Assembly: GCA_037176845.1 (NCBI GenBank)
Contig: JAYKXP010000182.1
Location: forward strand, 1-64,000
Source: Paramarasmius palmivorus
Lineage: Eukaryota > Basidiomycota > Agaricomycetes > Agaricales > Marasmiaceae
DNA length: 64,000 nucleotides
Direction of reading: 5' to 3'
In this document: one piece after another, positions 25,045 to 47,870 of the stretch
Position numbering within the stretch: position 1 is the stretch's first letter
Layout: every line of letters begins with the position of its first letter
Program-made: the position numbers and the translations under genes
The notes under the pieces: generated by a model
What the model saw: the letters and a program-made list of their open reading frames with translations, nothing else
Databases searched by the model: none
What the model was told of the DNA's origin: nothing

Positions 25045-25610
25045 CTACGAGTTATGCCGTCTCTGTGCCGAGTCTGACACGCGAGAGCGCCGATGAGGTG
25101 CTGCTGTAGATTCGCACGACCCCTCTCGACCAGTTGATATTACCGAATACCCCGGTGAACACCCCTTGGCATGCACAGAAGGGTAACGAATGGGAGATGG
25201 GCAAGGAGATTTGTGAATGGTAGGGATGACCGAGGCTTGGATGTAGCGTCTTCCTGGTGTGTTCGAAGGAAGATTAAAGCGGACAAGCTGCTGAAAAGGC
25301 CGTTTCAATGCCCATCTACTCTCTTTAACCCCATAGCCCCTGCTATACCGTTATACCGATCCAAGCCTATACGACGAAAACAAGCTGGACTTGCAAATGG
25401 TTGCGGGTGCTATCGAGGACGGTGTTGGCATTGTGATACCCTAATGCCTGATTCGTGGCTGGTTCGTCTTGCTCCTGAGGTTGCATGAGGGTGGTTTCTG
25501 GGTGGTTGATACCGCAAGAGGACAGAGAGCTTGGAAGCAGAAGCAGAAAAAAGTATGTAACTCCGGATCTGCCAGGCCTCTCCTCAACCATCATCACCAA
25601 CGCTGTTCGC
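25045..25610 (-). repeat. dispersed repeat family R, copy d
   Basis: On the minus strand it reads 'tgatgatggttgaggagagg', 'cctggcagatccggagttac' and 'ttttttctgc' at about 25,595-25,540. 'tatggggttaaagaga' follows at about 25,337 and a 'cgctacatcc' block at about 25,245. Order and spacing match copies b, c and e. The translated segment 'LPSNTPGRRYIQ' has a counterpart 'LLLNTPPRRYIL' in copy e. Confidence 0.55.
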
Positions 25611-33480: not shown

Positions 33481-33566
33481 TGAAGCTCAAGTGCGGTGTT
33501 CACAGCTCGAGATCTCGAAGGAGAATGCGATAAGAGAACGGGTGTGATCCTCCACCCGCTCTGTCT

Positions 33567-33619
33567 GGGACTTTGCAAAGTCCCCCGCATACGAGCCCAT
33601 GGTCACTTTGCAAAGTCAC
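33567..33619 (+). repeat. left terminal inverted repeat of the KDZ element
   Basis: GGGACTTTGCAAAGTCCC at 33,567-33,584 and GTCACTTTGCAAAGTCAC at 33,602-33,619 are both perfect palindromes. Together they mirror the pair at 47,089-47,141. They are likely transposase-binding sites. Confidence 0.7.
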
Positions 33620-33780
33620 TGGTCATTCCCTGGGTAGCAACAATGGCCTGGAATCATTACCATAAATGGAACATTCTAAGAGATACAATTTGCGAATGCA
33701 TATCAAGGCCAATAATCCCCAATAAATTTAATTAAAATAAATAATCCATAAATTAATTAATACGGTACAATTCCACAGAT

Positions 33781-33798
33781 GCACTTTGCAAAGTCCCC
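33781..33798. repeat. third, subterminal copy of the TTTGCAAAG palindrome
   Basis: GCACTTTGCAAAGTCCCC lies 8 bases outside the transposase stop codon. It may be an additional binding site or part of the 3' end of the gene. Confidence 0.55.
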
Positions 33799-33805
33799 GG
33801 CAAGC

Positions 33806-36800
33806 CTAGAAGCCCAAATCTGATGCGCTTTCATCCTCCAGGCCTTCCTCGTCTGCATCGCTACCCACTTCAGCCATAGCTTCCTTGAGAGACACCCTTT
33901 TGCGAGGTGGAGGATCAGGTTTGGCCCATAAACGCACAAACTTCACCACAAGCTCTTGGCGAATTGCTGCTTGCCGCAATGCGTATGCAGACCGACCTTC
34001 GGCATCCACACTGCTCTCACATTCCTTTGCTCGCTCGCACCACAGCTGACCCTCGTACCTCAAGCTCTCTAACGTTCGGCGCATCTCCTCCTCTATCAAC
34101 TCGAGTTCTTCGTCCCAACGCCGTTTTCTAGCCCAGGTTTTACACCACTCAATCCTCACAGCATCCTGCATGGCATCCGAACCATCTCCCAAATCCACAT
34201 CCTTCCAGATCCATGACGTGACTTTCCTACTCTCCCCAGGACGTATCAGCGGTGGTTGTTTGTCCTTTTCTGATCTCCTCTCATCACCCAAAACCTTCCG
34301 TCGATTCTTCAGGGCGTGTGTATCCGCTTCATCCAGACAACGAATATCCTCATCTCTGAGCTTTGGGTAGCCCACACACTCCGTTCCCACCAGGCTCTCC
34401 AATGCGACCCAAGCGGCTCGGAACTTTTCCTTGAAAGCACGGATCTTGTCGTCGTTCCGGCTCAGAGATTGGCGTGCACGAGTGGAGTCCTTTTGATACC
34501 GGACTTGTAGGGAACGCTCAACGTGTAGCCTTGCCCTGACGAATAAATGCATGCATATATAATGTAGCGATGCACGAAGCTGTGCGTGCCGGAAATCGAT
34601 TTCCATCTCCACCCACTGCTTCATGCTGGGCTGCTTGCGAAGGGATTCCGGTAACAATGAGGGTAAGCCCACAAGCTTATTCTGGACCTCCTCTGAAGCA
34701 GCATTGCACTCTGCTGCGACACGGCTATCCAGGTACGAGAGAATGAGCGGGGTGTATGTTTGCTGAATGGTTCGCAACCGGGCCAAGGCACGGCTTAGCC
34801 GTGTACGACGATCGATCAAAGCGGTCTTCTGGTCTGGCGTGATAGCTTCTTTACTATCCAATTCAAAACGTAACTGGCGCCTTCACAGAAGTGAGCATTT
34901 CGTCATACAATGAGAAGAACATACACACTGTTGTTCCTCGATATCCAAGGCAAGAGTTATGAACGCACTCGGGCTAACTTCATGAAGTGCTGGTATGCCC
35001 AACTTCTCTTGTTCTTCCTCTTTCTCTGCCCACTTCAGACGGGTCTCCTGCTCAGCTGTACCATTATCTAAATGCACTAGTCAGAATTATGACTCATTAC
35101 ACAGGTCTGGAACGCTTACTCGATCTTGGCAAAGAATATGGGTTTTCATCACTTTCCCCAGACTCCCATTTTTGAACACACTCCATCCATTTCGAAAGCG
35201 AATCGGCGACACCACATGAAAAATCTAACAATTCAGCATTATGGATGTCTCGCTGCAGCCTAGCATCACGCCGGCGCTTGAATAGCAGCTCGCCTGTCAT
35301 ATCAATCAGCTATTGGACTACGACCTGAAAGAATCGTCTTACCTAGACGAGTTATCTTCAACCAATTCCACCATCCCAAGTGATCGTCAATTGTGTCTCT
35401 TCGATGCCCCGGACCCATCTCCTTGGTGCTAGTAGCAATAGGGCCTAAGTTTGCCCAATGTCTTTCAACTCCCTCTCCGTCTGTCTGTCCAGCGCCCAAG
35501 ATGAAGTTGAGGGCGAAGTTCTCCTGACAACTCCTTTCGTGCGACTGGATATGGAGCTTGGGAACGGCAAACTTCCAACGATCCGTGTGAAGTCCCATCC
35601 TAGCTGCCAAAGGAAGTCTTTCCATTCGCAGAAAGAACTTCTTGTAATATTGGCATGCTATGTCATAGCACAAAATCCGGAAAAGTCGAACGTGTCCGCG
35701 TCGTTGCGAACATCCAATGGCATAGTCAGAATACATGAATCTAGAATCAATGTTAGCTCACGTCGAAAGGAGGCAACGCTACACTCACTTTTCGCCCTTT
35801 GGTGTATCCACAGTACCGTTTGGTTCCACGATTTCGTGGCGAGCACAAAGGCAAAGGATAGCGCCGGTAGTAGCATACCCTTTGCTGTATTTGGTGTTCG
35901 CTTGCTCCATAGCGGCCAGTGAACTGCAAGTATTTGTCTAATGGCAACATTAGCAGGATTCTACGTGACAATAATGGTTAATTTACCTCCTTTTGTTCCG
36001 GAACCTCCTTCATCCAGCTCTGATACTCGATTTGAGGCACAAAGTATGCCAAACCACTGTACAGCCCCGGATCCTTCTTCTCGCTAGAAATTGCCCTACG
36101 TTTGAGGCGAAAACAAGCATCGATACTAATGAACTTATGATATAGGAACCTATTCCCAATCAGTAAGATGCCATCTCACGTCCATCAATAAAAAAAAACG
36201 TACTGCTTAGACAAAGGTGTTGAACTCTCCCAGTCGTCGGGCATGTTAATGCCAGGTCTTGGGCAGGCAGGGCACGCCACCGCAAGCCCACCAGGTGCGA
36301 TGTCGTCCAGAGGAACCTCGGGAGTATTTCCCATGCCACCACGCTTCAGTAACTTCAAGTAACGCCACTGTCGCATTACTCGAATGAAACACTCGTATCG
36401 ATCCTAAATATCATTCATCAGTTCCTCTCACATACCGAGAACAGTCTCAAGACCCGTACCTTTACTTCCACGACGCCGGTACCATCAGTCACCGTCTCCA
36501 GGGCATGGTAAAAGTCGTATAATGATACCTTTCCCTGTAGCGTCAAGGTATGGAACAGCGACAAGGTTCGAAAGGTGAAAGCGGTGCGGGGATCTTCGGT
36601 TGTTGCTGGATACAGCCCAAAGCGCATCAGCTGCTGCCAAAGATCCCCTATTACTCCCACACTTCGACACTGGCACTCGTTTATGCGCACATCCAGCACA
36701 CCATTCAAATCGACCACCACAAAACCTGTCCGAACTCGTTTGGGGTTATCGCACTGTTGGCCGACCGCATGCCCAAGCTGAATGACATGGCCCAATTTTG

Positions 36801-37507
36801 CTAGAGACCAGCGTTCGAAAAAAGATCCGTTCCATTTCTGCAAGCGACATCAATGGTTAGACATTGGTATCATACAAAGGGTAATACTCACCTCGATGAC
36901 ATCGAACGGTCGTCGTACATGATCCTCTGTAATGCATAAAGAACACCACAAATCACCCCCGCAACAGCTACGGCAGCGGTAAAGTTCCTCCGTCTCTGTC
37001 GAACACTTGCAACAACTACCTCTCTTGCAATCTCCTCGCCCTTCCCGGTGCATGAACTCTGCCAGGAATTTCGGGGCCAGAGACAGCCAGGCGGTCATAA
37101 GTTTGCTCTGTTCATAATACAGCCCCGTTCAGCGATCATATATTTGGCAGTAAATCATCACTTACCGCACAGGCACTAGAACGTGTCGCTTTCTTTGCTC
37201 TCTCTTCCCTCGTGCTAAAATCAACCGACCCCACTCCATCCCCCCCTTCTGAATCCCAGTTTGGAATGCATGAGTCATTGGACCAGTCGAAGTCCGAATG
37301 GTCGTGCATAGAAAGGACCTCGCTCAGTACGCTACCCTTGGCGTTCTTCTCTGGCGAAGGCGGTACAATGGGAATCCTCTTCTGCCGGATCCTTCGGTGG
37401 TCATTGGTCAAGGCTTGTTGAACGATAGTGGAGCTTGGATCATCGAGATGGAAGAAAGTTGTTTGAAGGTCACTGCCAGGCAGGGTGGAGGCTTTCCTTT
37501 TGGGCAT
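33806..37507 (-). CDS. KDZ (Kyakuja-Dileera-Zisupton) transposase with CxC2 zinc cluster, ten exons, apparently intact
   Basis: DDE-type DNA transposase. The exons are 37,166-37,507, 36,892-37,107, 36,460-36,837, 36,204-36,403, 35,987-36,149, 35,789-35,937, 35,343-35,740, 35,120-35,293, 34,925-35,076 and 33,806-34,873. Phases all agree, giving 1,079 residues with no stop. After a disordered N-terminus (about 1-125) comes the CxC2 cysteine cluster ('CCKCSTETEELYRCRSCC', then 'WCSLC', 'WNGSFFERWSL', 'IQLGH'). The RNase-H-fold core follows, with 'SIDACFRLKRR' (first Asp), 'CYDIACQY' (second Asp) and 'TDGEGVERHWANLGP' (catalytic Glu region), then 'STKEMGPGHRRDTIDDH'. A charged helical C-terminus closes it. 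Length and motif order fit the family. It is transcribed away from the TET/JBP gene, 412 bases apart. Confidence 0.92.
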
Positions 37508-37715
37508 TCACGCGACGCGCAGGTGGTGATCAACAAACAGAAAAGGTGTCACGTCAGTCACAGCGCGTTTGTCACTACATCGATCACATTGTTCATCAAA
37601 GTTCATTAAGCGCCGTTCTGCCACCTGCTTCGTACCACCATGTTAAACATCCCCGGTAAGCTCTAAGCTCCCCTCGTTCCCCTTCTTTCTCTCCAGAGGT
37701 TGAATGTTTCTCTTT

Positions 37716-37830
37716 CGTGGGTACCCTCGCAAGGGAACCCTGTGAAAGATAATTCTTCCGAGGTTGTTGTTTATTCAATCTTCGTCGCAGAGTCTCTTGT
37801 GGGTACCCTTGCAAGGGAACCCTGTGAAGG
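37716..37830. promoter_or_regulatory. paired near-palindromes between the divergent transposase and TET/JBP genes
   Basis: Two near-identical 31-base copies lie at 37,716-37,746 and 37,799-37,829. Each holds GGGTACCCT(C/T)GCAAGGGAACCC, which is close to self-complementary, followed by TGTGAA. Only these two genes flank the spacer. The TTGCAA core recalls the TTTGCAAAG palindromes at the element ends. A shared regulatory or transposase-binding role is inference. Confidence 0.5.
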
Positions 37831-37918
37831 AATTTGCACATACCTTTTCGTCCAAATTCTGTCTACCGCACTTTTATCCCCTCTCTACGCGACTCGATTC
37901 GTAAATTTACTAACACAC

Positions 37919-39626
37919 ATGTCTCACCAGATGCTCTCAAGCATCTGTTTGATGGGCGACAGGTAACTCGTCTTCTATTCATGTCTATCATTATTCACAA
38001 ATAATGCCTTCAACAGACTAGACAGAGTATTTTTTTCTCTCCTTTCCTGACCGGCACCGACGACCACATTGATGCGCTCCTTCACCGAGCCCTTTCGATT
38101 GCAGAGCATCCTTCTATCGAGACCGACTCCCCGCTCACAACACCTCCATCGACACCACCTTCTTCTCCCCCTGCCTCTCCTCACCTCGACCCAACCCCTA
38201 CCAGCATCTCGACTCCACCATCATCCAGGGGCCCAATTACTTCATCAGCAGCTAAACGAACGACCCGTACTCGGCGGGTGAACGTCGAACGGGACAAGCT
38301 CAAGAGCAAGAAGAATAAGCATCGTCAACGCCGAGCCAAACAGATTGCAATTTGTGTCAATGTCAGTGCGGCTCAGGCGCATCGACCATCGACATCTCTG
38401 TTTTCCTCTGCCGTCATCCTCCCAGAAGAACTCGGCCATGAAAGTATAACCCCCAGCTCCACTGGGTACATTGGAGTCGAAAAAGATCTACCCGAGAGAC
38501 GAGAGTACTCCCGCGAAGAATTACTGGCACTTGGGTTTCGCCTTCATGCACACAACCCGAAGTAAGTCTCACTTTCGGTATCTATTTCAGAATTTTGACA
38601 ACCCATCAGTGCTCCCTGCCCCATTCTGCATTCGCAAACCAATTCCGTTATGTGCCTTGTCCAGCCGGCTCCTCCATCCGACTCCACCTGGCCGCTTCTA
38701 GTCCGACATCTCAACCAGACAATTGAAAGGCTGCGGAGTCAATGCACGTTCAAGCCAAACCGTTTGACGGTGAAACAGCGTCGGCTTGCCCAAATGGGTC
38801 TCGGAGGTCCGTTCGCTCTAGCGGAGCGTCGCGGACGTTTTAATCATTTGACTTATGGCATTTCTTTTGGCAACGGGCAGAAGGTCAAGGCACATCAATA
38901 CTTGATAGATGGACTGAATTCTGATTAGCGTTACAGTTTCCACAGCTTCTGCGACATACGGCAAGAAACAAAGGTGTCGTTGAACAAATTCGGAACGATC
39001 CAATGTTTCAACGTCTCACGGGTTGGCTATCAGGTGCGTCTGGTTTGTTATTTGGTGTATATCTCATCTGACTGGACTTTCAAACAGTTGGCATGTTGAC
39101 TTGGGCACCCAAATTGTTCTTATACTATGTGCAAGTCATGGCGTCACTCCTCACTCGATATCCTCGGCTCCACCTCCCTTTCCAAAATTCTATATTCGCG
39201 GCTTTCACAGTCAACTTCGGTCCGGCTACTGTCTGCTTTCCCCATCGCGATATCAAAAACTTGGCGTTCGGTTGGTGTGCTATTACAGCCCTTGGAGATT
39301 ATGATTGGACACTTGGCGGTCATCTGGTCTTGTGGGATCTGAAGCTCATGATTGAGTTTCCGCCTGGGACCACAATCTACTTGCCTTCCGCCACTCTTTG
39401 TCACCTCAACACAACCATTCGGCCGCATGAGAAGCGCTACTCGTTTACTATGTTCTCCGCGGGTGGGCTCTTTCGATGGGTCGAGCATGGTTTTCAGACC
39501 GAAAAGGTATATTCGGCCACTGTGGCTGCGGCTCAGCTCGCAGCCGACAATCGGAAACGATGGGACAACGGGTTAGCCTTGTTTTCGACGCTTGCTGAAC
39601 TTCGTGGAGGTACCCATCATACGTAA
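37919..39626 (+). CDS. TET/JBP-family 2-oxoglutarate/Fe(II) dioxygenase, five exons, apparently intact
   Basis: The family oxidises 5-methylcytosine (or thymine in JBP) in DNA, using Fe(II) and 2-oxoglutarate, in the nucleus. The exons are 37,919-37,962, 38,022-38,561, 38,610-38,883, 38,937-39,033 and 39,088-39,626. All are in phase, giving 497 residues. The N-terminus is Pro/Ser-rich, then basic ('KLKSKKNKHRQRRAK'). The catalytic part includes 'RGRFNHLTYGISFGNGQ', the iron-binding HxD as 'FPHRDIKN', then 'GWCAITALGDYD', 'GGHLVLWDLKL', the distal histidine in 'SATLCHLNTT', and the 2-oxoglutarate-binding arginine in 'EKRYSFTMFSAGGLFRW'. All key residues are present. The start was chosen for the small first exon that splices in phase. 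Divergent pairing with a KDZ transposase is the arrangement known from mushroom genomes. Confidence 0.9.
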
Positions 39627-39844
39627 ATGTCTTTGTATTTTCGGACTCGAGTACTTAATATATCAGCGAACTTGAAATATCTAAACTGTGGCATCAGAAG
39701 AAAAATCACTGATAGACATGTGATAGACTTTATTACAGTAGCGCCACTTTCCCACATGGCCAAGTTCAGCCACCCTGTTTTTTTTTCCCCGAGAGATAAT
39801 GAATTGGGACTAATTATCTATGGTAACAAAGGTGTACAGCTACT

Positions 39845-40413
39845 CTAGACCCGATCTTCGCCTTCCGTGTCGTCAGACTGAGTGCGGATGTTATGCTTGC
39901 GCGCAAGTTCACGTTCGCGAAGTAACAGTTGACTAGCTCCCCCCGCCGCCGAGAAAGGCCCGTATAAAGCATCGATAAAGTTGTTTCTGAGAGCCCCCTG
40001 AACCATATCGAGACTGCTGTCGAGCGGGATGGCGACAGGAGCAGTGTACGGGCGACCGCGACTGAGAGACTGATCAGTGGAAACGAAATCGGAAATATTA
40101 CGGAAACTCACCTGGAAGGATTCCTTGAAGGAGACGGTACCGTCGTAACGTCGTAGGAAGCAATGTCCGACTCAGAGTCTGTCCCAGAGTTAGATTCCGA
40201 AGCATGAGGCTGGCTGCCAGGTTTCTCGGCTTTTTTGGTTGAGGTACTCTCGCCATTGTTAGGCTTGTCCTCTGTGCTATTTGATTCTAGATTAGGTTAT
40301 AATAGTGATAGATAAATCTGGGTCACTCACTTCTGTGCACTTGAGACCGGGGACTGAGTTGTGCCAGACGTCTGAGCTTGCGTCTGAGAGGTGTTCGACG
40401 AGGGCGAGGGCAT
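39845..40413 (-). CDS. small Ser/Thr-rich unknown protein, KDZ-element cargo
   Basis: Three exons (40,331-40,413, 40,112-40,276 and 39,845-40,061) join in phase to 154 residues. The start ATG at 40,413 opens a low-complexity 'SSNTSQTQAQTSGTTQS' stretch. The middle is charged. The C-terminal 70 residues are more ordered ('IPLDSSLDMVQGALRNNFID', then 'LLLRERELARKHNI'). No domain is recognised. It is convergent with the TET/JBP gene, 218 bases away. No stops, and each intron has GTGAGT. Confidence 0.65.
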
Positions 40414-40907
40414 GATGGCGGTAAGGAACAAAGAAAAATAACAATCAAATCTGGTCCAGACATACCTATGTGTGGGGTAATTGACAGGATGTTGATTTCT
40501 GCCCGGCAGAAAATCAGGACGACTGAAGTAGGTTATTCTCTTTTTTGGCTCTGTTAAGAGACGGGAAGGAACTCTGTGAGCTCGGAAGAGAAGTGGAACG
40601 GGCTCTAGAATATCTGGCTCTCACTTTGTTCACTCAGAATTTAATGTGGCCGGAGGAAACAATATGTACGAAGCAAACAAGGTGTGCGAACAGTCAATGG
40701 ACTAAAGACTGCACAGAGACAAAGGTGATCCATACTTTCGTCAATCAGTATCTGTTCCACATATAATATTCTGGGCTATGGGACTCATATTATTCATTAA
40801 TTGCTGATCTTCAAATCACACCAAAGATAGAACCCAGAAAACGCTATATTCGATCGTTGTACAATAGGACTACTATAATAAGGCAAATAAACTACGAGAC
40901 CATAGCT
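40414..40907. other. intergenic spacer within the KDZ element
   Basis: AT-rich spacer between two minus-strand genes. The plus-strand ORF at 40,545-40,766 has no support. Confidence 0.35.
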
Positions 40908-41692
40908 TCACTGATCAGCAGGCAGAAGGGATACTCGACCGGTTGAGAGCGCAAGCCTCCAGAGCTCTTCAGCCTTGTCCTTGGACCCCAATCGCTCAAC
41001 TCGTACCAAGGAATGTTGTCCTGCTGCTCGCTTCGCATCCGCCCTAAATACGTACCTCTGAGCTTGCTACAAAGTAAGGAAATGAAATCACTCACTCATT
41101 ATCATAGACACCAGGTGCTGCGCCCTTGACGACGACCCACCAAAATCGTCGCATCTTCCTCGCTGACTCTGCGACCTGTTCCTGCTTAATGTGACTTGAA
41201 CCGCCGACGAGAAGGTCGCCGTATCCTCGGATTTCCTGTTGCTTCGGTTGTGAATGCTTGAAAGAACTTGCTGACTTCTCACAGCCTGTGGGACCTTTTG
41301 GAGGATCCCCCACAATGGCTTTCTCGTTCGCCTCCTGCCATGCCTGTTTCGCTGACTCCACAGTAGGAAATCCACGAAAATTTTGGTTGCGAAATCCAGA
41401 AACGGAATGGTTACAAGACTCCCTGCAGATCTCAAAGTCAGCGACAGCGAGTGGAAATTCAAATAGAAACTCACCAGGTATAGTGCACTCCTTTGACACG
41501 ACCGTTAAATACCACGTAGGCGACACTTCCGCTATTAGTCTTAGTGGGCGAGAGACCAGCACCCCTGATATGATTGTGTGACGCTCGCACAAAAGGATCT
41601 TCCTCGCCCTCAATAACCTCTGGAGATTCGGAACGCGTGGATAACTGTGAAAATCGATGAAAGACTTCTTCGTCCGAGTCGAAATCTGACAT
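40908..41692 (-). CDS. protein with two viroplasmin / RNase H1 N-terminal-like domains, KDZ-element cargo
   Basis: Three exons (41,475-41,692, 41,096-41,422 and 40,908-41,043) give 226 residues with consistent phases. The first domain is about residues 55-105, with 'YVVFNGRVKGVHYTW', 'CNHSVSGF', 'FRGFPTVESAKQAW'. It matches the small fold found at the N-terminus of eukaryotic RNase H1 and in caulimovirus viroplasmin (consensus YVV.xGRxPGVYxxW..C..QV.GF..A.Y..F...EEA). A second, more divergent copy ends the protein ('FWWVVVKGAAPGVYDNE', then 'DKAEELWRLA'). In RNase H1 this fold binds RNA-DNA hybrid or dsRNA. No RNase H catalytic domain follows. The last intron uses the second AG (41,044), because only that one restores the domain frame. 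Confidence 0.72.
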
Positions 41693-42038
41693 ATCTGGCT
41701 TCTGAGATTAGTGAGCTATCAATTAATGTGAGTGGGGGGGATGCTGACCGTTCACCGTGTTTACAGGGGAAGGAATGGGTCTTGGGGAAGGAACAATAAT
41801 GGGCGTTTGTGTGAGCGTCGGCAACAAATCATTGAATGATTGAGTGATTGGCCTGTGAAATGATTGCCCGTTTGATCCACCAGTGTGACACTAGTGTGAC
41901 ATCTGTAGTTTTGATTTCTCGGACCATCGTCGGGACCTTTATGTACGTCCTCTAAGTCTTATCAGGCTGGTATGTTTGATTCTATTGCTATTTTATTGCC
42001 TAGAATGCCTGAGCTCACACTTACCACAAGATACACCA

Positions 42039-42624
42039 ATGACTCGCTCCGACCCAGAAAATATAGCGCGCCTTCGAGTACAAGGTAACCTCCATATTAC
42101 CGGGGAAGAGGAACAGGCCTGGATGCGGCAAAAATGGCCCCATCTTTCTGAGGAACACTTTCATGATATGACGATATCACGTCAACAGCGCCGTAGGGAG
42201 CTTAACAAGAGAGAGAGAGAGCATGCACGTTACCTTAGGTGCGTATCAAGTTCTTCGAAGTCCGAGCCGTTGCTGAGCCATATACTAATGTACGTCGTAT
42301 AAGCAGGAATAGAGACCAAAGGAAGGCGGCCGCAGCATTAAGGATCCAAAGGTACATCATAACAATGTCGTGTTGCCATACCAAATATCTGAAACGGGCG
42401 CCGCAGGAAAATGGAGGCTTTCAAAGATGATGTAGACGCGCTGGAGAAATTCAAGGAGGCACATCGTAATGCCCAAGGTCGGTATCATCAACGTAACAAG
42501 GAGCAAATCAACGCCAAGGCTCGGATCCGACGTTCTGAGGCCATGAAGAAGGCTAGGTATGCCCCCGTATCAATGGATTAACTTCTTATTCGCTCATGAT
42601 TGGAACGGTGACATTCATAGGTGA
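42039..42624 (+). CDS. basic coiled-coil protein, KDZ-element cargo
   Basis: Exons 42,039-42,238, 42,307-42,351, 42,407-42,556 and a tiny terminal exon 42,621-42,624 give about 132 residues. It is highly charged and helical: 'RQQRRRELNKREREHARY', 'NRDQRKAAAALRIQRK', 'RYHQRNKEQINAKARIRR'. The RY.xRN.ExINAKAR pattern recurs in many mushroom transposon-linked proteins as far as I recall; its function is unknown. An alternative last exon at 42,757-42,811 (acceptor TTTACAG) would replace the tiny one and add about 18 residues. The ATG at 42,039 is the first in frame after the upstream acceptor-like AG. Confidence 0.55.
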
Positions 42625-42920
42625 ATTCGATAGAAACCAATCTTCTGTAGGCCTAGTCAATGTATACAACGATGCAACTGAGCCCAACCTCCACTACTAT
42701 TAATGCCGAAATCCGTAAAAGCCATATCCGAATAAATCACGTTCACTCGTTTACAGTGACCCTTTCGCCGGTTCCGAAAAATGGGTGTACGAAAGGATTT
42801 CACTTGCTTGATTGTTGGCTGGAGGTTCGGCTGGGTAATATCATTCAGGCGGTGGCTGAGATCTCTGCAAATTGCAGGGATAATATAGCTCAGAATATTC
42901 CTGCCTGCAATCCACCAACC

Positions 42921-44172
42921 ATGCCTCTGGAAGACTCAGGACGGTCTAGCGTTGATGACGGTTTATCGACTGGTGAGCGTTTTTTCTGGACGGTGTGGCC
43001 TGTGGATACTGACCATGTGATGGGCGTCTCTGACAGGTGAAACAAACAGTCCCTCAAGCAAGATACGTGAAGAAATACCCCATGAATCGTTGTAGACACC
43101 AGAAGGTACGTCAAACTTGGTATCTCGTGTATAATTCTGATTAATTTTTTCTATAGAACCTAATGAAACGGACGACGCGTCGCGGTCATCAAACCTCGAT
43201 ATCCCGGGAGAAGGGCTCAAAAAGGCAGTAGGAGTACATCTGGGTAAGTATGTGTTTATCTCGAGTCATAACTACACTGACGTTCAAGCTATAGACGGTG
43301 GAGACGCATCTGGTGGAGCGGACCCTATGGCTTCGAGCTCGACCAACAATGCCGACACTGGCGCGTGGCAAGCACCCAGCCGTCCTTCGACAGGTCCAAA
43401 CTCGAACGCAGACCCTACTCCGACCTCCGTGACATCCTCGAATCAGGAGACCGCGAACCGACGGGGGAACCCAGGAAACTTTACTGGGGAACAGCTACAG
43501 TTCTTGCTCGACGCGTTTGCCGAGTACGACAAGTTACCCCGGCGAAGCAAGGAGAGTGGGGATTGGATGAGGGAGTTTATTCCAAAGTTCATTGCAAGAT
43601 TCCCTTTGGACAAGTATCCTCCACCATCAATTAAACAGATGTCACCACTCGAGGATGTCGACGTCAGTAAATTGAGCGCTAAAAAGCTGAAGGCTTATAA
43701 AAAACGGGTGGCCGCGCGCGAGGCCAACGAACGCCCGGAAGAAAGGCTCGCTACAGTAAGTTATTGTCGTGATATGCCCAGTGTGCTGCTGATATAGTGC
43801 TTTTGCAAGGCGATTCGGCGGTGGTTCTATTGGAAAGGAGGCGACATGAGGAAGAAGGACGATGAGTCAGTTGAGAAGTTCTTGAAGAGCATGAAGAAGG
43901 AAGCCAAAGCCCCTCGTCGACAGCAGAAGCAGAACTATCTCACCTCGAGTGAAGGATTCAGGAAGGCAGTCGAGGAGAAGTCGAATGAGACAGGACGTCT
44001 GGATCGACTCCCAAGTCGTCATAAAGCAGCAAATCAACTGTGGGGGGAGCTTGACGAGGACCAACAACAGGTGATTCTGGATGATATCGAGGCAAAATAT
44101 TCGGAAGCCTTGTCTGAGTGGAAGAAGAAAAAGGAAGGGGGTGTTGAGGAAGGGGCTCGTGACTCGATGTAA
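42921..44172 (+). pseudogene. unknown 'IRRWFYW' protein, KDZ-element cargo, one in-frame TAG
   Basis: Exons 42,921-42,972, 43,037-43,105, 43,157-43,243, 43,295-43,755 and 43,810-44,172 join with fully consistent phases, for 343 codons. One TAG sits at 43,093-43,095 in exon 2; the sequence reads on smoothly after it ('TPEEPNETDDASRSS'). If the TAG is a true stop, an internal start would be needed. The core has 'FTGEQLQFLLDAFAEYDKL', then a helix, then 'IRRWFYWKGG'. The C-terminal helical part has 'HKAANQLWGELDEDQQQ'. This matches the layout of a large agaricomycete family of unknown function that I recall (an N-terminal FTG..L.FL helix, IxxWF(Y/F) motif, late W..L...). The two other plausible readings are nonsense mutation or an unrecognised intron. 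Confidence 0.55.
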
Positions 44173-44401
44173 GGTTTACGTGCTGCTTTTGAAGATCTTC
44201 GTTGACGAGTTGGTCTCTAGAACTCGTCGCAGCGTTGGAAGAATAGTACAGCCGTTCATCGATGTCTTGCACCGGCGTACAGGCCTCTCGTGCGTGGTTT
44301 TTGTGGGTGAGGATGTAGATGGTCAGGGTAAATTCGACTCTGCGATGTAAGTGTTCAGCGTTTCTGTTTGGTTTGGATTGAGGCTCAAACGTGAAAACAG
44401 T

Positions 44402-46802
44402 ATGAGTGCTTCCCCACCAGGCACTCCGAAAATAACACAGTTCAACGTCGATAAATTCAATCCGTTTATCGAATTCTTCTACCGCTGGCTCCGAACGATC
44501 CGACAACACGGGGAAGAAGCGGGCAACTCACCAGCGCCTGAAGATTCAGCAACTTCAATGACATCTTCGCAGGGCAGTGGCACCTCGGCCTCTGCCTCGG
44601 TTTCAGCACAAGGCAGACCGGACTTGGATGCAAACACTCAAGGGTCCATCCCTATCTCTGGTATCAGCAAGAAACGCAGAAACAGGCGGAAGAAACGCGT
44701 GGGAGACGAGGAAGAGACGACGAGTAGCGATTCGGGTATGGGGAGTGGAGTTGGAGGCGACGATGACGCTTTTGGTGAGCAGGAAAGCGACTATGAGGAG
44801 GAATCTGAGGAGGAGGAGCCGAATGTTCCACAATTCAAGCCAGCACCGGGACCGTACGAAGCTCGTCGCGAGGAAAACATCAAAGCCAACCGCGAGCTTT
44901 TGACAAAGCTCAGGTTGGACAAGAGTATATTTGCCTCAACGAAGCCACCGAAGAGACCCAGTTCGTCCAAGGGTAAAGAATCAGGTCAAGATTCAGTTGA
45001 ACCTAAAAGACGTTCCTCGCGGCTGAAGGCTAGTGCACTGGTGCGTTTACTTCTATTGTTGTATGCTCTGATGCTTTACTGATATCCTTTCCATTAGGTC
45101 ACTGGTGAGAGGAGTGCCCAAGATTGTCAAGATCCTGCAAATCTGAGAGCAGATCAACCTGAGGTCAGTTGGCTTAATTTGATTGGTCTGTATCAAGCTA
45201 ATAGAGTTACATTAAAAGATCGATGTTGTCAACTTTCCCGTGGAGGATACTTACGACAAGTTGGTGACCGAATGCAATCGGTTCAAGGACGACCAAGAAA
45301 GTGTCGATGTCATGCAGCTGTGCGACTTAGTGATGGCAACAACGACCGAAGGCTCAGAGGCTCGAAATACGTGGATTGCCTATGTGTCTGCGTTATCCCA
45401 GGCTTGGTTGGATAAGAAGGAGAATCCATTACAGGATATAGCATGGCCATCAGTACGTTGTTTGTTTGGGGATTTATGGTTGACATATGTAACTAAACGG
45501 TTGTCTTATAGCTTCCCGACCGGAATATCGAAACCGGTTGCAAAACACAAGACCGTCACGAGGTAAGCTCTTTGATGAAGCAGGTAATGATTGATATTGA
45601 CCGAACGTTTGAATAGCCATCACCGGATGACAATGTGGAGGAAAGAGATCATCTGGCAGTCCGAATCGGCGATCCTATACCAGCGGATGACGAAAGGGGT
45701 GGTAACGGTGATGAAGTGAGTTGTGTTATATCATGATAATGGTCAGACTGATAAGATGAGGCAGGACGTGCAGCTTAGGGAAGAGTCGAATGACCAGCCT
45801 CGTCTGGATGGCATCAACGGTCCAGAACAAGGTCTTCAGATGGCGGGGAATGAGTTATCGAGCACGAAAATACCCTCGAGCACAGGCAGTTCCACTGTTT
45901 CACCTGATCTGACAGAAGCCATCAATTCGTCGCTTGATTCTATGCCGGATCAAATACCACAAGAACACCAATCTTCATCTTTGCCAGCCCTTGAGCTAGG
46001 AGTAGAGGGTCACTCCAAGTCCGAAGCGGTAGTCGCAGCTTACGCGACCGTCATGGTGTCACCAAGGTATACATATGACCCAGGAGAACATGATAGCGAC
46101 GTGATCTCATGGTTCGTGTCTTATCTTATGGGTAAGCCTACAGGATATCAAGGCCCAGATCGACCTCAGCTGTGGAGGTCATTGGTATACCTTTGGGCAG
46201 ACCTGCAGGAAAGCTGGGAAATGGTGCCGGGCTTCAAAAATAAGGTACTTGCTCGATCGAATGGGTTAGACAGGCACTGACCTCTTTGTTTAGAAAGCAC
46301 CTGGCAAGCCTGTTCGTCCAATATGCATTGAGCAATGGAACAAATATGGGCGGACTCGCAGCATGGCTTCTGGTGCACCTCCTGGTGCAACTCTAGAATG
46401 CCTACGTGCGGAATGGTGGTCGTGGTGGTCCTCGGCGAACCCCCCCAGCGTATCTCGCAGTGGCCACTTTGTTCTACCAGCTACCGAATCCGACGTCAAA
46501 GAAATGCACATGCGAGGCGAACATGGGATCGTACTGTTCTTGGTAGTACTCCGCTGGTGGCACGATGTGGGTGGCCATTCAGACGAAGCTAGTATGTGGG
46601 AAGAGGCAGTGAAGAGTATGTATTGTGCCATGGACCTCATGCTAAAGTCAATGTAAGCGTTGGTCTTCTTGAGAACATTCGGTTTATCTGACGTTTTGGA
46701 AACAGCGTTGAAACGTCGACAGTTAGCACAGGATGTAAGCGAAAGGATTTGGAGGAAGAGAACATGAGGGAGAGTAAGGTAGCAAAACGATCCCGGAAGT
46801 AA
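44402..46802 (+). CDS. unknown 674-residue acidic protein with a Trp-rich C-terminal domain, KDZ-element cargo
   Basis: Eight exons (44,402-45,040, 45,098-45,163, 45,219-45,452, 45,512-45,562, 45,617-45,715, 45,765-46,244, 46,294-46,652 and 46,706-46,802) all agree in phase and no stop occurs. The N-terminal third is Ser-rich, then basic ('KKRRNRRKKRVGDEEE') and strongly acidic. The middle holds repeated helical segments. The last 200 residues form a conserved-looking block: 'LWRSLVYLWADLQESW', 'IEQWNKYGR', 'LRAEWWSWWSSANP', 'VVLRWWHDVGG'. I recall that W..LV..W..LE / WW..L / LxWW block from many mushroom proteins of unknown function. A nuclear-localisation-like tail ends it ('CKRKDLEEE...KRSRK'). 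It lies 230 bases after the preceding cargo gene, in the same orientation, at the right end of the element. Confidence 0.72.
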
Positions 46803-47088
46803 TATAGCTATGTCTTCGTTGTGTCAGGTGCATTAGATATAAATGATACTAGTGTTTTATTGGACTTGAAGCTCTGAATGTGTGACTTATGTGTCCAGAA
46901 ATTGTGAGTGTGTGACACCGTTACAACACGGCATGAGAGACTATACTGGCAAAAATGGGCTCAGTTAAGTATTCTTGGCAGATATTGGGCTTTTACCCTA
47001 AGTATTTCTCTAAAAGGAAGGTAGATACCTACTTAAAGTGCGTTGCAGAGGATTGTTTACCCTTTAGAACCCTTGAATAACATTATCT

Positions 47089-47141
47089 GTGACTTTGCAA
47101 AGTGTACCTGGGGTTATTAGCAAGGGACTTTGCAAAGGTCC
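47089..47141 (-). repeat. right terminal inverted repeat of the KDZ element
   Basis: 'gtgactttgcaaagtgta' (47,089-47,106) and GGGACTTTGCAAAGGTCC (47,124-47,141) mirror the left-end palindrome pair, with near-equal spacing (35 versus 34 bases). One base in the outermost copy breaks perfect symmetry. Confidence 0.7.
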
Positions 47142-47149
47142 AACAAGAT

Positions 47150-47870
47150 CGGCTGGATCCTCATAGCCCAGAAAAACTGGTGTGAAGCGGAAGGCTGACC
47201 AGGATGCAGGATTTGGGAGAAGGAGATGAGTAGACTTGAGCTCCGGGTACTATGGATGGTTATGTTCGTGGAGCAGTCTTCTGGGGGTGAAGGGAGATTG
47301 TCGATGGGGTGCAATGCAGCCGCCCATCCAAACAAGGGCGCAATAGATGCCTTGGAGACGTGTGTGGGGTCGAGAACTGGGTGAAAGGGTGATTGTGTAG
47401 CGTCTCTCGCTGTCGTTTTTGGACAATGATCTTGTGAAGATGGTAGGGATGACCGAGGAGGATGTAGCGTCTTGGCGGGGTGTTCAAGAGAAGGATAAAG
47501 TTGACGAGAGAAGGGCATTGAAAATTAGACGATACTGTAGAAATGGGTATGAATGGATGTATACCTCGACCAAATTTAGTGCTCGATTTCAATGGCCCAA
47601 TGTCCTCTCTTTGACCCCATAACTGCTACTATACCGTTCTACACATCTGAGTCACTACGATGAGAGCAACCTGGGTTTGTGAACAGTTGCGGGGGCTATC
47701 GAGGACGACGTTGACATCGTAATACCCTAATGACCTGTGTGCGATTCGTGGCTGTTTCGTCCTGGTTCTGAGGTTGCTTGTCGAGGGCTACAAAAGGACC
47801 GAGTCAGAGAGCGCGGAAGCGGAAAAAGGTAACTCCGCGCTGAATGGGTTCAATTGGTGTAAGGCCGTCT
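47150..47870 (-). repeat. dispersed repeat family R, copy e, abutting the KDZ element
   Basis: On the minus strand it has 'cggagttacctttttccgc' at about 47,850, 'tatggggtcaaagagagg' at about 47,622, 'ggtcgaggtatacatccatt' at about 47,570 and 'cgctacatcctcctcggtca' at about 47,470. This is the clearest counterpart of copy b. It starts within about ten bases of the right end of the element, so the element may have inserted into or next to an R copy. Confidence 0.6.

Follow-up and report, generated by a model that had tools for sequence, protein, structure and literature searches.

Delimitation of the element

Does a cluster of genes around a KDZ transposase and a TET/JBP dioxygenase (the kind of enzyme that removes DNA methylation) in Paramarasmius palmivorus, a mushroom associated with palms (Agaricales, Marasmiaceae), form one complete transposon, and if so, where does it end and has it moved recently? 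We analyzed a 64,000-nucleotide stretch of this genome (contig JAYKXP010000182.1 of assembly GCA_037176845.1, positions 1 to 64,000; hereafter the window), in which a first-pass annotation had proposed an intact KDZ-TET/JBP element at 33567-47141; other contigs of the assembly are denoted C9, C244 and so on. Our analysis makes it highly probable that the window contains a complete TET-positive Kyakuja (KDZ) cut-and-paste DNA transposon: at the level of sequence, we show defined termini with a 7-bp target site duplication (TSD), open KDZ and TET/JBP genes placed head-to-head, and a cargo order that is kept in relatives. The frame of the element, including its terminal inverted repeats (TIRs), is as follows:

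33553..47155, whole element, 13,603 bp, 5'-CACCCG...CGGCTG-3', delimited by termini and TSD
33546..33552, left TSD copy, GATCCTC, 7 bp, adjoining the left terminus
47156..47162, right TSD copy, GATCCTC, 7 bp, adjoining the right terminus
33553..33627, plus strand, left TIR, CAC-type end, two palindromes 35 bp apart
47081..47155, minus strand, right TIR, CAG-type end, two palindromes 35 bp apart
33784..33793, third CTTTGCAAAG palindrome, directly beyond the KDZ stop codon

Both termini lie flush with GATCCTC, with CACCCG starting at 33553 and CGGCTG finishing at 47155; the limits of the earlier delimitation fell 14 bp short on each side of the true ends, which are given by the 7-bp TSD and the CA..TG terminus. 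The mirror-image ends that it described, with two palindromes each, are present at a spacing of 35 bp on both sides (TTTGCAAAG, occurring as CTTTGCAAAG; left, 33571 and 33606; right, 47093 and 47128). This palindrome was matched 10 times over both strands against 0.65 expected, a count reached in 0 of 100 shuffles. Aligned with the reverse-complemented right end, the left end shows homology that extends beyond the palindromes, with 54 of 75 bases matching in register and 87-nt arms at 71% complementarity. The third palindrome (33784) has no counterpart at the same spot in C244 or C41, and C188 carries one at a similar spot (C188:31473). As a single strand, the left end folds unremarkably (z = -1.56), and no tRNA genes were found in the window.

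The 7-bp TSD and the 5'-CA..TG-3' termini are both Kyakuja features, and it is by these two sequence characters that we assign the element to Kyakuja.

Divergent KDZ and TET/JBP genes

The two core genes and the sequences between and within them are arranged as follows (aa, amino acids):

33806..37507, minus strand, KDZ transposase, 10 exons, 1077 aa, with CxC2 cysteine cluster and KDZ domain
37508..37639, 132 bp separating the start codons of KDZ and TET, head-to-head, presumed two-way promoter
37640..39626, plus strand, TET/JBP dioxygenase, 6 exons, 500 aa, H374/D376/H427
37719..37740, plus strand, leader motif copy 1, near-palindromic GGRTACYCNCGCNNGGGAAYC, in TET intron 1
37801..37822, plus strand, leader motif copy 2 (1 mismatch), in TET intron 1

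As previously described, the ten-exon transposase gene is fully open, with GT-AG introns; its product matches the KDZ superfamily profiles PF18758 (E = 3.3e-57) and CxC2 PF18803 (E = 4.8e-37), and we take D389, D509 and E572 to be its putative catalytic residues. For the TET/JBP gene, the open frame and HxD..H residues noted earlier were retained, while the deposited model sets the start at 37640 with six exons, and splicing the window DNA by that model gives VNI00_017636 exactly. An alternative start at 37952 was dropped after comparison with deposited proteins. A TET-like dioxygenase fold with the HxD..H triad was recovered by fold comparison and alignment of relatives, and the iron-binding residues H374, D376 and H427 are invariant in 37 of 37 sequences.

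Genome searches scored the best candidates for each query (84 of 469 for KDZ, 150 of 159 for TET and 40 of 227 for the palindrome arm), so that the counts given here are lower bounds. KDZ/TET pairing was counted over the best 80 of 150 TET matches and 101 KDZ rows from 159 matches. Of the 30 closest TET loci, 25 lie within 10 kb of a listed KDZ, and all 25 pairs are divergent (head-to-head). The leader motif, a 21-bp near-palindrome derived by comparing the window with C244, C41 and C188, is matched 22 times genome-wide at up to 1 mismatch, always upstream of TET and on its strand (22/22). Six of these matches lie in the four defining loci, and the 16 independent matches beyond them are likewise all upstream of TET. 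Allowing 2 mismatches added 14 matches, split evenly between positions upstream of TET (7) and positions without TET within 12 kb (7). The control yielded 3 matches; placement used all 36 motif rows and 55 TET rows.

Related ends and evidence for mobility

A pattern defined from about nine of the matched ends yielded 52 matches genome-wide at up to 2 mismatches, compared with 1 in a reversed control. Ten end pairs were chosen for TSD analysis (facing ends on C116, C155 and C285 were left out), and an exact 7-bp TSD was found in 8 of them: the window element and those on C244, C9, C127, C188, C211, C176 and C240. All ten pairs combine one CAC-type with one CAG-type end; note that the pattern allows C or G at that base and does not force unlike pairs. 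Looking in the assembly for the same gene order, as the first-pass annotation had advised, proved productive, with C244 and C41 repeating the order of the window element between such ends. The empty site that it also suggested seeking was found in part, as a paralogous, apparently unoccupied site on C9, diverged and with a modest left-flank match. Together with the flush TSDs, this site strengthens the proposal, itself well supported, that a KDZ-TET/JBP element lies here complete and apparently intact between mirror-image ends.

The suggestion of a recently active copy did not gain support for the window element itself: its left end (134-bp query) matches only itself, and its closest full-length TET relatives share 64-70% identity. 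For the wider family, recent mobility is supported by sequence comparison, because the autonomous elements on C33 and C232 are near-identical at different flanks and three non-autonomous copies with exact TSDs are 95.5-97.4% identical to each other. The C33/C232 pair is 99.9-100% identical over the compared stretches, with exactly the same right end and different right flanks; both contigs seem to begin inside the element, leaving the left ends out of view. Candidate left TSD partners for the C232 element were no more frequent (4 matches) than in the control (5 matches), and that search was uninformative.

Judging by match offsets, C232 is about 6.4 kb longer than C33 between TET and the gene for a hybrid-binding-domain protein (see below). 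Separately, the right flank of the window element (47190-47724) is repetitive, being about 72% similar to C9:83485-83977 and in part about 76% similar to window 25303-25487.

Palindromic non-autonomous relatives

The three non-autonomous copies are giant, nearly perfect palindromes:

C127:111546-114690, palindromic non-autonomous element (L016), exact 7-bp TSD
C188:36899-40077, palindromic non-autonomous element (L017), 3.2 kb, TSD TCACCAT
C211:27870-31155, palindromic non-autonomous element (L019), exact 7-bp TSD

They have only 65-86-bp terminal stretches in common with the window element. The first-pass annotation had held that end palindromes without KDZ genes between them would speak against its proposal, and such elements (3.1-3.3 kb) do occur; we read them as non-autonomous relatives and not as a refutation because their termini and TSD length are the same. 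Over the first 1,480 bp, the two arms of each copy differ by substitutions at positions 3, 7, 10 and 11 only (3/3 copies, with 2 further gap columns in C127), and further differences sit near the center. Substitutions between copies in this stretch are mirrored in both arms in every case (43/43, 35/35 and 32/32), from which we infer that arms are homogenized within each copy while unlike tips persist. A search with an arm piece found facing pairs on 15 contigs among the best 40 of 227 candidates, with equal arm scores in 13 of the 15.

Part of the arm also recurs as facing pairs on C1, C12, C17, C28, C80, C102, C158, C171, C193, C210, C265 and C291. The C188 copy interrupts the TET/JBP gene of a different KDZ-TET element. 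C176:49837-53160 and C240:5986-9494 may represent a second non-autonomous family; both have exact TSDs, and their ends are of the TTTACAAAG/TTTGTAAAG type.

Alternative explanations

Several observations weigh against a complete and mobile Kyakuja element. Two end pairs, C41:92772-107813 and C89:67410-79489, have matching ends without a TSD (these are perhaps rearranged or chimeric elements); no second copy of the window element is known; and the C9 site is diverged, its left-flank match scoring 26 against 21.5 for the best of 200 shuffles. Among the next 50 TET loci, 36 are without a listed KDZ within 10 kb, 6 are same-strand and 8 divergent. This TET by itself matches no Pfam or PDB family, searches of solved structures giving no relevant match, and its family is named only via relatives (6/37) and fold. 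Finally, pN (nonsynonymous differences per site) is low against saturated pS (synonymous differences per site) in comparisons with relatives, yet synonymous divergence (dS) has reached saturation in every comparison except one, and pN reaches 0.42 against C188. Poorly aligned columns were removed, which lowers pN; the constraint is therefore long-term and approximate, and saturation at synonymous sites leaves most genes without a calculable dN/dS ratio.

One alternative is that the window holds a Kyakuja insertion that is old and immobile, with genes still open by chance or through domestication by the host. The solitary end and the distant TET relatives agree with it, whereas a TSD intact at 7/7 bases, the openness of all gene models and low pN against saturated pS do not, leaving it a real but minority prospect. 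That KDZ and TET merely adjoin unrelated cargo between coincidental palindromes draws on the finding that TET, KDZ and the 1182-aa cargo gene also occur apart in the same genome, but the flush TSD with terminal repeats, the recurrence of similar ends (52 matches vs. 1) and the shared gene order in C244 and C41 make this explanation extremely improbable. The mirrored arms of the non-autonomous copies could, on another account, be an assembly or polishing artefact, since polishing with ambiguous short reads could leave arms base-identical at all compared positions but four. A fold-back read, however, would mirror the flanks too, yet these differ and carry the TSD; moreover, copies differ by 32-43 substitutions per arm and 2 of 15 arm pairs differ in score, and we consider an artefact quite unlikely. 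A complete TET-positive Kyakuja transposon remains our preferred interpretation of the window element.

Cargo genes

Downstream of TET, the element carries the following genes, and every gene model in the element is open:

39845..40413, minus strand, doubtful small gene, possible Ser-rich product of 154 aa in 3 exons
40908..41692, minus strand, hybrid-binding-domain gene (RNase H1 N-terminal, Cauli_VI), 226 aa, identical to VNI00_017638
42039..46802, plus strand, single 16-exon cargo gene, 1182 aa, VNI00_017639

The two open minus-strand genes reported earlier fared differently: one is identical to a deposited protein, while the small Ser-rich gene is doubtful, since C244, C41 and C188 offer no convincing counterpart. 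The hybrid-binding domain (PF01693) is recognized with E = 1e-13 and 51.7 bits, above the curated cut-off of 21, and a weak second copy of the domain is also present; no RNase H domain was found in the 226-aa protein, and its PDB matches are weak (1qhk, E = 0.0034; 3bsu, E = 0.018). In all 8 places where this gene occurs (condensed from 23 match rows) it lies downstream of TET on the opposite strand. The further plus-strand genes of the first-pass annotation, including a "fifth" with a TAG, were over-split. They form one 16-exon gene: spliced accordingly, the window DNA encodes a protein identical to the deposited P0121 and free of stops, so that on this model the TAG is not a defect. A two-gene version was dropped after comparison with deposited proteins. 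No Pfam domain was found in the 1182-aa protein. Its gene occurs in 40 places (condensed from 79 match rows), comprising 24 downstream of TET on the TET strand, 2 near TET in other arrangements and 14 without TET within 12 kb.

Proposed mechanism

Taken as a whole, we read the element as a cut-and-paste transposon that probably also lifts its own silencing, where movement, TET activity and cargo roles are what we infer. The transposase would bind the paired subterminal TTTGCAAAG palindromes, pair one CAC-type with one CAG-type end, cut at the CA/TG termini and insert with a 7-bp stagger. TET may oxidize 5-methylcytosine within the element or close to it, thereby countering methylation silencing, as Kojima 2025 (PMC12730594) proposes for this class; more tentatively, the hybrid-binding-domain protein could guard against an RNA-based silencing step, and the leader motif could serve as a binding site coordinating the two divergent genes.

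In a wider reading, Kyakuja transposition might need unlike ends (CAC plus CAG), a rule that would keep the four terminal differences open while the ~1.5-kb arms stay identical by conversion or fold-back copying. Autonomous elements might escape silencing twice, with TET acting against DNA methylation and the hybrid-binding-domain protein against RNA-directed silencing, raised for example by hairpin transcripts of giant palindromes, and the leader motif might tie both divergent genes to an element-encoded regulator. That all three propositions hold jointly seems to us rather unlikely. An excision assay calls for a delimited TET-positive element of this sort, whose ends are exact, whose TSD measures 7 bp, whose genes are open and whose genome also holds non-autonomous relatives. 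Two questions thereby become accessible to experiment: does a TET carried by a transposon benefit that transposon, and must the two ends used by KDZ transposases be unlike? The mirrored palindromes offer a natural experiment on the upkeep of identity between inverted arms.

Comparison with known systems

TET-positive Kyakuja elements of Agaricomycetes with a KDZ transposase, a TET/JBP gene, 7-bp TSDs and CA..TG ends are already described in the available portion of PMC12730594, which gives 46 Kyakuja-associated TET genes for Coprinopsis cinerea. The same portion describes two L. bicolor Kyakuja families as lacking TIRs, which does not define the lineage; the window element differs in having ~75-bp imperfect TIRs (54/75 terminal positions inverted-repeat) with paired palindromes. 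Neither the hybrid-binding-domain gene nor the 1182-aa gene was found mentioned in that portion, and the same holds for unlike ends and for non-autonomous copies in palindrome form; the words "cargo" and "nonautonomous" are absent from the main text. CcTET of Coprinopsis cinerea (PDB 8jkk, 7w5p, 7vpn) is 14-15% identical over 275-295 aligned residues, with no sequence-level match. The AG-type of Kojima 2025 has Asp at CcTET D337 and Gly/Ser at G331; counted ungapped from HxD, as no sequence alignment to CcTET was attainable, the window TET has C385 and N379.

A broad literature search with Kyakuja and non-autonomous or palindrome terms returned no paper naming Kyakuja among the matches listed, nor did literature on the species (including its older name) contain a transposon-titled paper among the matches listed. 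Marasmius oreades is a marasmioid mushroom and kin of P. palmivorus. KDZ elements are abundant there, and in the available text its authors state that they characterized KDZ and Plavaka TIR motifs (PMC8290104). The Pleurotus Helitron helpo1.3, with capE, resembles our element as a mobile element with a Cauli_VI-domain gene, but is a Helitron, and the accessible part of its description mentions neither KDZ nor TET (PMC4289320). KDZ1-3 of Cryptococcus neoformans, as far as the available text of PMC12810828 describes them, are alike in KDZ transposase and TIRs and differ in carrying CxC1 (vs. CxC2) and in TSD length (8 bp for KDZ1 and 4-8 bp for KDZ2/KDZ3, vs. 7 bp), and those elements have been seen to move.
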